NCBI GenBank assembly: GCA_030052745.1
Contig: JANBVO010000012.1
Span: 248,001-312,000 of the forward strand
From: Pleurostoma richardsiae
Taxonomy: Eukaryota; Ascomycota; Sordariomycetes; Calosphaeriales; Pleurostomataceae
Direction: 5' to 3'
DNA: 64,000 bases
Under the pieces are notes generated by a model. That model ran no database searches and was not told the DNA's origin. It was given only the letters and a program-made list of their open reading frames with translations. Below are positions 49,236 through 55,570 of the stretch, piece after piece. Each line of letters opens with the position of its first letter. Position 1 is the first letter of the stretch. The translations under genes and the position numbers were made by a program.

Positions 49236-50317
49236 TCAGCCCTCGTCTTCTTTCCCCTTGCCTTTGCCTTTGGCCTTCTCCTCGTCTTGCTTCTCCTTCC
49301 GCTTCTGCACCACCTCCCAGTTGTACACCCTCGCCACAGCGACCTCCATAGTCTGTAGGCAAAGTCAGTCAGCAAACATCCACATGTCAAGGGGGTGTTG
49401 CACGAGTCCTGTACCGTGATCTGCTCCCGCAGGAAGTCCAGGTCCTCTTCGCAGTTCTCCAGGCTCTGCTTTGCGGCTCGTAACCTCTTGTCTAGTAGCT
49501 CATCCGCCTCGTCTATCGGGTACGCCAGCATGACGTTTGCCTGCAGGGAAGGCGAGGTCTGTCAGTGTCCATTGTCCACGACCGTCGAATAGGAGGTATA
49601 AGCCAGCACATACTCCTAGCCAGAGATAGACCTCATCCGTGGGCGGCACCTCGGCCTTTGCGTATAGGGTGTCGTTCAGCTCGAAGGTCGTTTCTATGGG
49701 GTCGGACTCGTCCTGCTCGGGGGTGTCAGCTCCGCTGGTAGTCGAATCTCCGCGCTCATCACCGCGTCGCACTCCCTCGTGTCACAGCCGCAGACGTACC
49801 GTCCTAGTATTCAAGAAGCGCACCGAGTCCAACGTCTTCTGTATGTCCGGCATCTTGTCCTTCAGCCCCGCGACCCTCCGCTGCAAGTTCGACTCCATAA
49901 ACTGGTATTTTCTGAACGCAGTACCAAAGCTGTCAGCCCCCTATACTATATGATCCTCCGCGCCCGGTTGGCCCCTGGCGATGCCACCAAGACGTCTTCG
50001 ACGGCTGGGAGAAGGAAGCCAGAAGACGCGGGGAGCAGGGTCGATGTGGCTCTCCTCCTGGGAGTGTCCGGGCGCAGGAACTCACGAGATCATCTCCTGG
50101 AAGCTGCGCAGCGTGGGCTCGACGTCCTCGCGTGACGAGACGTAGTCCTCGACCTTGTCGACGAACGGCGCATACGGGATGCCACGCGGATTGGTGGGCG
50201 CATCTTTGCTCCTGGTGATCGCAAGGAAGTTAGTTTCTCGTGCAGAGCAGAGACGGCGGGATGGAGGGGGTGTGGTGGCGCATACTCTGATGCGACTTCT
50301 TTGCCTTTACTCGCCAT
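49236..50317 (-). CDS. PAC10: Prefoldin subunit 3 (PAC10/VBP1)
   Basis: Alpha-class subunit of the hexameric prefoldin chaperone that hands nascent actin and tubulin to the CCT chaperonin. Model, 203 aa in six exons: 50286-50317, 50086-50211, 49800-49911, 49614-49712, 49415-49540 and 49236-49352 (introns 74, 174, 87, 73 and 62 nt). Seen: NPRGIPYAPFVDKVEDYV; the first coiled-coil helix through KYQFMESNLQRRVAGLKDKMPDI; the beta-hairpin region FELNDTLYAKAEV, then PPTDEVYLWLGANVMLAYP; the second helix EADELLDKRLRAAKQSLENCEEDLDFLREQIT; and a Lys/Gly-rich tail. Exon 4 must start at 49712, because the alternative CAG further upstream meets a stop. With cofactor C, it is the second tubulin-folding gene in the window; linkage is probably chance. 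Confidence 0.92.
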
Positions 50318-51255: not shown

Positions 51256-54200
51256 CTAATCATCGTCCATCTCTTCGCTGCTACTGTAGCCGCTCTCTTC
51301 TCCACCGGCAGTGGCGACCGAGCTGCCGGTATGCAGCAACTCCCCGCTTCGGGCCCTGCGCCCGACACTGCCGCTACCGCTTCGTCGGGCATCGAGGGGA
51401 ATCCGTCGCGAGTGGCTGTGGGGCGGCCGCACGCTTGAGCTGTTTCGTGTGTTGCCCTCTTCACGACTGTTAAGGGGATCTTCATCTTCCTCGTCACCCT
51501 CGTCATTGGCGCTCAGTTCCTCCTCCTCCGCAAAGGTATTATCGGATTGATGAGGATTGGCCTTTTGAGAAACGGCTTCGATCTCTGCAGAAGACTCCGC
51601 CATCTCCTCATCGTCCTCCTCCGACTCCTCATCCGACTCAAGGAAGTCGAAGCCGGTTTCCGACTCCGAGCTCGAGCTGAAGGGCGGGTAGAACATAGCA
51701 GGTGCTGGTAGAGAGGCTGGCTCCAGTTTCTGCGGCGTGATGCGGAGATACTCAATTTCCACGGGAGGACTCTCTTCACGCAATTGAGTTGTCGCAGTTG
51801 GGGAGGCAGCGGACAGGGTAGCCAGCCGGGAGATGATGGAATCGGCAGTCTCCTCGGATACCGTCCGCCCTAACTGAGGTCGCCCTTCTGAGGTTCGGAC
51901 ATTGCGTGGTCGCCGAGTCAGGCATGCTACCCTGAAATGATCTTCCGGTATGACACCGCCCAGGCCGCAAGCCTCGAGACATGGCTCGAATTCTTCGAAC
52001 TTGGGGGTTGCGGGTTCATCGCACCATGGGAAATCACCTTCAACACCATCTGAATCCGTGCCATCGGTGATGAGCTCCGGCTCTGGCTGTCTGTCGGAGA
52101 CATCATCGCTATCCTGGTGGAGAGGGGTGGAACCGTCGCTTAAAGGCCTGAACGGCAGTGATGAGCCGGACAATGTCCTGCCAAATTGTGGCTTGTCCCC
52201 CTCGGTCGGGTCCGACTCTTGCGGCTGGCTCGTGGACGTCATCATGTACGTTGTCGGGGAGAGATCCCCAGCATCGCCTGACAGGTCAATACAGAACGGT
52301 GCGCCGCTGTAATAGACAATGGCCCCATCGTTTCGACGCCGCTTGCGTTGAGACGAGCCAGAGCCAGTGTGAGAATTAGGCATACGGTTGCTGTCACCTC
52401 CCCCACCGTAGGAACCTTGAGATGCCGACTCCTCCTCCGTGGACTCCTCAGCAGATGACTGTCGGTGGATGAACAGCGGCTTATAGTGGAAGCTTTCAGC
52501 CGAAGATCCGGAAGTTGTCTGCGTACGCAGGTTCGGCTGGTCTTTCGATGAAGCTTGTGTCGATCCTTCGGTCTTCCGTTTCTTCCGCTGCCCTTCCTCG
52601 TTCGAGCCCTCGGTATCATCCGTCGAAGAGCCCTTGGAAAGCTCACCGCTGCTGTCACTGCTGAACTTGGTCCCATCTATCCCACCACGCCACCTGATCT
52701 TTTGGCCGTCCGGCGACAGCTGGAACTTGGCGCTTTTCTCACTGACTGCGCTCCGGATGAAATCCTGAGTGACATTGGCGATGTGGAGTTGAGCCAAGTT
52801 GCTGAGAAGGTTCAGATACACCCAGCCTTCGGCATCCACACCCACGTCCCGTGGCTTGAAAGTGCTCTCTGAAAGATACTCGGGTGGTATGACACCTAGG
52901 TGGCGAATGTAATCCATGTTCTCCGACGGCATTTGAGCACGATCGGGATCCAAGTCGCGCGGCCTAGTTGGGCGCTGGTCTGCCAGTGGCACCGTGGGTG
53001 GTGAGGTGTCGTTGCTGCTCCTGCTCCCACTACCACCTCCGCTGCCTCCCGCCTTACCTCCAAGCTCCGTGTTTTCTCCGTTTGAGTTAGATGCGGATCT
53101 ATTATCTCTCGACCGGCTCTTCTTCCCAGAATCCGTAGATTGCATGACGGCCTCCCTGGATGCCTCCCCACTTGAGCCAACTACCGGCAAACTGGGCGGT
53201 ATGAAAACGGTCCCGGCCGTGGCAGGTGCTGCTGATGGATCTAAAGCCGGGGTCTGCTGGTTCTGTTGAGCGGGTTTGCCACCTAACTTCCCTGTAAACA
53301 GCTGCTCCAGCCTTCGGACCACCCATTTCTTCCTTTCCTTCTCGGTCATCAACATGTGACGAGGATACAGGCCCTCCGGAATATCCTTAAGGTAGGACTG
53401 GACCTTCTGATTTGATGATTTTGACCGCCCTGAAAACGGTCGACTCACGGAGTTTGAGGAGTTCGGTGCACCAGAGCTGGCACCCGTCGACATAGATGCG
53501 TAAGCCGAATCGGTAGGGCGGGACTTGGAAGAGGACGAAGACGCATGCTTCGAATTGGATAAGCTCGATCCATGGAGGCGCTTTGTGTGCTTCGGGGACG
53601 GCTTTCGCGGTGAGGATCCGGCGGAGGCATCACCGATGCCTGCAGCGAAATCGCGCAATGTCTCTTCGAGCTCCCGCTTCTTCCGTCGTGGCAGGCCATG
53701 CATTTTGATCTCGAATAACTTGTCTTCGTTCATAAGATCTCGACCGAACTGCTTGTAACGCTTCAGTTCCTCCTTCAATCGTTTGTTTTCAATGGTTAAG
53801 TCGTCGATAACACTCCGGAAGTCTGCAGCACTGCTACTACGGCTTAGAGTCGGCCTGATCTGAGAAGATGGTCCCAGGGAGCCAGGCGGGGGGTACGGCA
53901 GCATTGACGCCGGAGGAGGCACATGGCGCTCCTCGTTGGATGAATCGGTTTCGTTCTGAAAGAATGGAGGATCGACTACAGCACACTCTCAGTCAACGTG
54001 CTCAACGCAAGGCTGACTACTGGGGTGAGATGCTTACCGTCCATTGAGGTCGAATCATAGTTCACCGCCGCGTTGCGGTTCGAGCGATCAAACCATTTCC
54101 TGGCATCACTCTGGCCAGTTTGATGGCTCTCACCAGACGACTGACGTCGCGGCGGGCTGCCCTCGGCCGCCGCGGCTCGACTTCCTGGACTAGCTCTCAC

Positions 54201-54341
54201 TGATGCATCTCTGGAAAGTCTGTGGTGATGCAGGGTCACCGAGTTCTCCGGCGAAGCTCTTCTCGGCAAACAATGACCGAGGTCTTCCATCTCGGTTGGC
54301 GGCGGCTGAGTACTGTGCGGCCTGGATTGCGCATCTCCCAT
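51256..54341 (-). CDS. frq: FREQUENCY: circadian clock negative-arm protein
   Basis: Scaffold of the fungal clock repressor complex. With the helicase FRH and casein kinase 1 it inhibits the White Collar activator, and progressive phosphorylation sets period. Model, 1007 aa: exons 54038-54341 and 51256-53975, intron 62 nt; the Neurospora protein is 989 aa. Seen: [18 protein letters not shown] near the N-terminus; Met100, matching the short-form start (AUG-S); [16 protein letters not shown] coiled coil runs about 155-178 ([19 protein letters not shown]), followed by [19 protein letters not shown]. Next come [27 protein letters not shown] with MDYIRHLG at 455, [34 protein letters not shown] and a KKRKTE basic cluster. 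The FRH-binding region lies near 705-800 ([20 protein letters not shown]). Acidic PEST-like stretches precede the conserved end [21 protein letters not shown]. Ser/Thr density is very high throughout. Confidence 0.96.
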
Positions 54342-54396
54342 AGCGGCGAGATACAGAGAGGCCGAGGTGCTCTGGTCCAATTTCGGAGAAGGGCAT
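54190..54396 (-). promoter_or_regulatory. Overlapping upstream ORF across the frq long-form start
   Basis: An ATG at 54396, 55 nt before the long-form frq ATG and out of frame with it, opens 68 codons that end at 54190. The stop lies about 146 nt before the Met100 codon (54044-54042). If present in the mRNA, it would disfavour the long form and allow re-initiation at Met100. A GTACAG donor-like site at 54410 could instead start an intron that removes this ATG and the long-form ATG. Confidence 0.4.
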
Positions 54397-55503
54397 GCTC
54401 AGGCCTGTACCTCGACGCGAGGAGAACCGACTGGCACCACTGGGGTGCCGACGAGACAGGCAATCGAAGGTATGCAGCCCCGATCAGATGGAAGCTGGCG
54501 GAAGCTGGCGGAAGCTACTGAAGGCGCCGACGGTGCGAACGCACTTGTGTGTCTCGGTTCAACCGCTGTGCTAAAAAGAAATCGCGGAAACAACTGTGCT
54601 GGCGGCCAGGAAGCCGCGCAGTGCAAGGCCAGATATCGGCGACGATATGAGAAGAGGAGGTACCTAATCGAAGGTGTAAGACCAACGCATCCTGAGATGT
54701 CGGAGACCACAACATATACCAAGCGGGGTGTGAGTGACAGGGTAGGGAGAGAAGGAGGAGTGGAAACGAGGGCTAAGGGTAGTAAAGAGGACTACACGCT
54801 TCCTCCACTTGCCAGCTCATGAAAGAGTGGTTCGCGCCGCTTCGTTTCCTTGGGGATGGTATCTGGCCGTGGTCTGAGGAGCGGCCGAGACCAGCTCCAT
54901 AAAACGCCGGGCGACGTTTATACTGGTAACGTGTCGAAGGGGAAGGGGGATAAAGTCTTTGCAGGAGGGGGGCAGCCAGCTGGGACGAGGGGGTGGTGGA
55001 TTCGCTCTCACCTCAACTGAGACTATACAGTTCTGCAGGGCTGCAGCGCGATCGTCGTCGCCGTCGTCTTGCGTGTGTACGGACTACAATGCCGGACCAA
55101 CCAAGTCGACATGGACAGCAGGAAGAAATGGGGTTTAATACAAAGGAAAGGCTGGATTAGGGTCAGCCAGGAGAGAGATGGCCCCAGGAACGGGCCACAG
55201 AGCAGCGGCGCTGTGTGCCACACAAACAGGTGAGATCAGGCGAGCCGGCGGGCAGAGCAACAGCAACCGTGTAGCTGAAGATCCGGGCCCAAATCGAGAT
55301 CGAGGAACGGGAGCCGAGACGTGACAGGCGTCTAGTTGTTTTTAAGGTCGTGAGTGTCCCTTCGGCTGTGTGGACTGCAGTGAAGTGCCTAATGGCCTCT
55401 CCGCCGTGATGGTTTGAACTGGCAAAGAGGCCACAGAGTCTCTTCGCGTCGTCGTTGGAAATTTCTGTCTTCGATGTGTCGTCGGTCTTCCAGATCGCAA
55501 GCT

Positions 55504-55570
55504 GATTGCGCCGATTCTGAGGAGCGGTCGAGGGAGCCAGTCCAGATCGGCTGCGATCGAGGAATTATAA
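55504..55570 (-). promoter_or_regulatory. Candidate proximal light-response element cluster with TATA-like site
   Basis: Within 70 bp there are GATTGCGCCGATT (55504-55516) and GATCGGCTGCGATC (55545-55558), each pairing a GATN with a CGATN carrying the same N. These differ by one base from the White Collar consensus GATNC..CGATN. A TTATAA at 55565-55570 lies on the upstream side as read for frq. If used, the leader would be about 1.2 kb, close to the long leader known for Neurospora frq. The assignment is by pattern and position only. Confidence 0.35.

Follow-up and report, generated by a model that had tools for sequence, protein, structure and literature searches.

In Neurospora crassa, FRQ is made in two forms that differ by 99 N-terminal amino acids (excerpts of PMC10140173 and PMC9911066; one legend in PMC10140173 instead reads 'M at 99 aa'). 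Of three AUGs in the frq ORF there, the first and the third serve as starts (excerpt of PMC6829141), and the short form arises when intron I-6, which carries the first AUG, is removed (excerpt of PMC10140173). In the window, i.e. the whole 64,000-nt stretch of DNA that was analysed, a minus-strand frq gene encodes a product of 1007 aa with a methionine at codon 100. An earlier note on this DNA had taken this methionine, at an exactly kept spacing, as a sign of a conserved two-isoform design. Is Met100 a second start codon in this gene, or is it kept for another reason?

The frq gene and its surroundings

Coding exon 1 (54038..54341, minus strand) begins MGDAQSR and encodes residues 1-101, ending one base into codon 102; 20 codons 5′ of its first ATG there is an in-frame stop. 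Residues 18-101 matched positions 4-90 of the FRQ family profile PF09421 (2.2e-32; 112.6 bits, cut-off 26.6). Coding exon 2 (51256..53975, minus strand) completes V102, which falls on profile position 91, and runs to the stop codon TAG; from D103 onwards it matched positions 92-983 (1014.2 bits, cut-off 26.6). A 62-nt phase 1 intron (53976..54037, minus strand; GTAAGC...TGTAG) separates D101 from V102, and this splice is supported because the PF09421 model continues across it from exon 1 to exon 2. The product belongs to the FRQ family, matching PF09421 above the cut-off and over nearly the whole length of the profile. Searching the 39.4-Mb assembly with PF09421 gave two matches (2/2 candidates scored), which were the two exons of this same gene, and a 212-aa frq query returned the same two exons at E values up to 1 (3/3 candidates scored); no second frq copy was seen in the assembly by either search. 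No FRQ relative was found in prokaryotic or viral contig collections, which say nothing about fungi, and the exon-2 protein had no relative in the PDB at E up to 1, solved structures likewise saying nothing about fungi. As an orthologue of frequency, the circadian clock gene, this one is unexceptional.

Residue 100 of the long form is indeed a methionine (54042..54044, minus strand), and the coding intron begins, as the earlier note had it, one codon after it; more exactly, Met100 is followed by D101 and then by codon 102, which the intron splits, a distance of one codon and one base. This visible intron lies after Met100, so it cannot remove the first in-frame ATG (AUG_L). Its retention would end the long frame after 121 residues, at the acceptor TAG, and the coding intron therefore does not choose between forms.

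Downstream of frq and on the same strand, a multi-intron gene was read by eye at ~49500-50317, which may encode a prefoldin subunit. About 1.2 kb upstream of AUG_L, at 55545-55559 (minus strand), lies a direct repeat, CGATCGCAGCCGATC, resembling a White Collar light-response element; this type of repeat had one match in the window against 0.23 expected, with at least one in 22 of 100 shuffles, and so is a weak signal. Elsewhere in the genome (G000; C59, C91, C73 and C134), DSHCT gave three matches at two places, which are FRH/Mtr4-type candidates, and PAS_9 gave eight, the best two nearly equal and located at C73 and C134. These DSHCT and PAS_9 matches are possible clock partners.

Conservation and numbering of Met100

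Conservation was assessed by replacing residues with X in a 212-aa piece of the protein, or for residues further along in a 251-aa one, and recording the bits lost against PF09421, from unmasked baselines of 296.8 and 288.4 bits, respectively. The losses are relative weights rather than residue frequencies and express conservation as held in Pfam's model, whose seed is not visible. The protein has 18 methionines, of which 11 were masked singly (all except 1, 633, 679, 680, 862, 893 and 1004). Masking Met100 cost 4.4 bits, the second highest loss among the 11, after M455 (4.6) and ahead of M311 (4.0), M263 (3.7), M183 (3.7), M309 (3.1), M193 (2.0), M379 (1.4), M450 (0.7), M126 (0.3) and M18 (0.3). 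In the profile, Met100 stands at the start of a conserved block, with D101 at model position 90. This comparison is with the family profile, and it supports Met100 as a conserved position of the FRQ family. As a conserved family column, the methionine is present by homology rather than by chance. With 18 methionines in 1007 residues, one would fall at a given codon with a likelihood of ~2%; however, the loss of 4.4 bits at Met100 compared with 0.3 at M18 and M126 makes it very improbable that a methionine merely happens to fall at codon 100. We rejected chance for the residue on this basis; its exact number, 100, could nevertheless be a coincidence. The residue most likely corresponds one to one with N. 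crassa Met100, the short-form start.

Conserved residues flank Met100 on both sides. Upstream, masking cost 0 bits at N94, 4.5 at Y95, 2.1 at D96, 1.2 at S97, 0.1 at T98 and 0.4 at S99, so that the three residues just before Met100 are weak; downstream, the losses were 3.1 (D101), 3.8 (V102), 3.2 (D103), 4.5 (P104), 4.9 (F106) and 4.6 bits (F107), P105 having been left out of single-residue masking. Further away, W83 lost 7.4 and R28 3.6 bits. Met100 is probably kept as part of a conserved stretch from about Y95 to F107 (Y-D-x-x-x-M-D-V-D-P-P-F-F) that would also be important in the long protein. That Met100 exceeds its left neighbours S97, T98 and S99 can be read as retention of a start, and a conserved methionine may be both residue and start, since methionine has a single codon and the profile cannot separate the two roles. 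Against retention specific to a start, five other FRQ methionines have like weight (M455, M311, M263, M183 and M309). We consider it rather probable that this is an ordinary frq gene in which Met100 is homologous but is kept as part of the conserved stretch, and the long form from AUG_L is presumably its main product.

Conservation of the N-terminus was surveyed by masking residues 1-100 five at a time (20/20 blocks). The earlier note had called the first 99 residues poorly conserved, which these data contradict: each of the 16 blocks in residues 21-100 lost between 4.1 and 16.8 bits. From 21-25 to 56-60, the losses were 9.6, 15.9, 13.8, 14.2, 10.5, 9.9, 4.1 and 4.9 bits, with the weakest scored part at residues 51-60, and from 61-65 to 96-100 they were 7.1, 13.5, 12.1, 13.1, 16.8, 11.7, 7.5 and 8.2 bits. 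Only residues 1-20 are without profile support (0, 0, 0.3 and 0.1 bits for blocks 1-5, 6-10, 11-15 and 16-20), and residues 1-17 lie outside the match, which makes them unscored, not shown to be variable. All seven blocks in residues 66-100 cost 7.5-16.8 bits, and the region corresponding to N. crassa 71-99 thus appears conserved. In N. crassa l-FRQ with the third AUG mutated, deletions of 71-77 and 78-99 are arrhythmic (excerpt of PMC10140173), which would explain why the segment preceding Met100 is itself conserved.

The codon number itself rests on the choice of the first ATG and on the 20 residues that lack profile support. Up to Met100 there are three in-frame AUGs, namely M1, M18 and M100. 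Met18 (54288..54290, minus strand) is the outermost residue of the profile match, and were it the start, Met100 would be codon 83. As an internal landmark we used the only SSxxS in residues 1-100, SSGES at residues 68-72 (54126..54140, minus strand), which is the apparent counterpart of the N. crassa phospho-serines 72, 73 and 76, themselves an SSxxS pattern (excerpts of PMC10140173 and PMC9911066). Its serines are at 68, 69 and 72, in blocks that cost 13.5 and 12.1 bits, and the correspondence is suggested by numbering rather than by aligned letters. By this measure, the part from the start to the serines seems 4 residues shorter than in N. crassa and the part from the serines to Met100 4 residues longer. 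The equal total of 100 is then probably a coincidence, two spacing changes of 4 cancelling each other. Of the proposed exact spacing, the total of 100 stands, but its parts seem shifted. The two-isoform proposal is plausible as a reasonable, ordinary hypothesis, and the argument from exact spacing fails.

Possible routes to a short form

If a short form is made, the most likely route would be that of Neurospora, in which AUG_L is lost with a 5′ intron that is spliced inefficiently. A conserved design of the Neurospora type would have an inefficient, temperature-sensitive intron spanning AUG_L, whose removal leads to initiation at Met100 and to FRQ lacking 99 residues. The conservation of Met100 agrees with such a design, as do its place as the third in-frame AUG, described likewise for N. 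crassa, and the AUG-spanning regulated introns of N. crassa and Pyronema confluens (excerpts of PMC10140173 and PMC3778014). However, we found no consensus intron over AUG_L, as the interval from there to Met100 has no acceptor accompanied by a consensus branch point. A relaxed search gave one candidate that would remove AUG_L (54211..54354, minus strand; GTATCT...CTTTCCAG, 144 nt), which lacks a consensus branch point. In 500 dinucleotide shuffles, such candidates numbered 1.52 on average, with at least one in 54% of shuffles, and the candidate was rejected as evidence for an AUG_L-removing intron, being at chance level. Intron I-6 of N. crassa has nonconsensus splice sites, and a scan for consensus sites could therefore miss its homologue. 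We abandoned a splice model built from ~130 kb of the organism's own genome, because the introns were too few and their signal was inseparable from background. RNA folding of 54341-53976 revealed nothing notable (z -1.32; matched by 11 of 100 shuffles).

Besides the intron search, the start contexts also bear on this design. A purine at -3 favours initiation. AUG_L (54339..54341, minus strand) has the context GCCGCTATGG, with G at -3 and +4, while the candidate short-form start at Met100 (AUG_S) has the context ACCTCAATGG, with T at -3; by the purine rule, the first is strong and the second weak. Furthermore, codons 95-96 (TAT GAT) form an out-of-frame ATG 14 nt upstream of Met100 (54056..54058, minus strand), which has A at -3 and whose reading frame, 50 codons long on the spliced mRNA, extends over Met100. 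Since there is no AG between this ATG and Met100, it cannot be spliced out by itself. Five out-of-frame ATGs occur in the 297 nt that precede Met100, and synonymous resampling predicts 2.85 (P of at least 5 = 0.073); they are not depleted, giving no sign of selection clearing a path to Met100. An ATG within 30 nt upstream of Met100 is in itself unremarkable, as it occurs in 57% of synonymous resamplings. Together, the weak context and the out-of-frame ATGs weigh against efficient production of a short form by scanning, although this is not proof. Overall, a short form from Met100 is quite possible, with no indication of it in the sequence, and a conserved Neurospora-type design is possible too, if somewhat on the doubtful side.

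The Tyr95-Asp96 codons could also be viewed as a cis element, with TAT GAT holding down the short form in this lineage, which we think unlikely. Tyrosine is encoded by TAT at 7 and by TAC at 10 of the 17 tyrosine codons of frq. As Tyr95 is conserved, a silent choice between TAT and TAC would tune s-FRQ or nearly switch it off between species, and if such a brake were real, the isoform ratio could evolve through one synonymous site.

Six ATGs lie upstream of AUG_L, at 55112, 54900, 54820, 54715, 54690 and 54396 (minus strand), and are candidate uORF starts. The last of these has A at -3 and opens an out-of-frame stretch of 68 codons (54190..54396, minus strand) that overlaps AUG_L. In principle, the choice between forms could be translational: ribosomes caught by the 54396 frame would resume scanning, and some would start at Met100. 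The favourable -3 position of this AUG and the end of its frame at 54190, upstream of Met100, would allow this; however, 54396 may lie outside the mRNA, and three more out-of-frame AUGs (54106, 54096 and 54058) stand between the 54190 stop and Met100. We hold a translational choice to be quite improbable. The reading that we prefer is still an ordinary frq gene whose Met100 belongs to a conserved stretch of the long protein.

Comparison with known systems

Colot et al. are said to have reported in 2005 that alternative splicing of frq is conserved within the Sordariaceae. Residues 1-100 of N. crassa FRQ have been aligned with FRQs of other fungi in a published figure (Fig. 4A of PMC10140173, known from excerpts), and an alignment of the N. 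crassa and Verticillium proteins is named in an excerpt of PMC10381341. The excerpts of a Verticillium paper (PMC7493669) hold no mention of an isoform, AUG or start codon, and for the two FRQs of Beauveria, an origin as isoforms of one gene is described as unlikely (excerpt of PMC7140403). Among the titles and abstract openings listed, none described a test of a short-form start outside Neurospora and Pyronema, which is weak evidence of absence. Should fungi that have FRQ generally initiate at Met100, adjusting the clock to temperature through the ratio of isoforms would be an old trait and not one peculiar to Neurospora. What is new here is only that Met100 and its surroundings fit the conserved family profile; of the two-isoform design, the conserved methionine and its place as third in-frame AUG stood up, but a good AUG_L-spanning intron, and with it the regulated step, was not found.

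Like N. crassa frq (NCU02265), the gene encodes an FRQ of ~1000 aa (1007 here and 989 there; excerpt of PMC10140173). As with l-FRQ and s-FRQ, it has three in-frame AUGs, the third ~99-100 codons in, and what appears to be the same serine cluster precedes the third AUG. Unlike in N. crassa, there is no convincing intron over AUG_L, and the distance from the serine cluster to Met100 seems 4 residues longer. The 62-nt coding intron directly follows Met100, and it differs in kind from the N. crassa short-form intron, which overlaps the first AUG. In P. confluens, RNA-seq and RT-PCR demonstrated an AUG-spanning frq intron (PCON_09365) with light-dependent splicing and a minor transcript whose product would be 32 residues shorter (excerpt of PMC3778014). 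Like that gene, the frq studied here belongs to a filamentous ascomycete and has a downstream in-frame AUG that would be usable if AUG_L were spliced out; in contrast to the 32 residues in Pyronema, 99 would be lost here.
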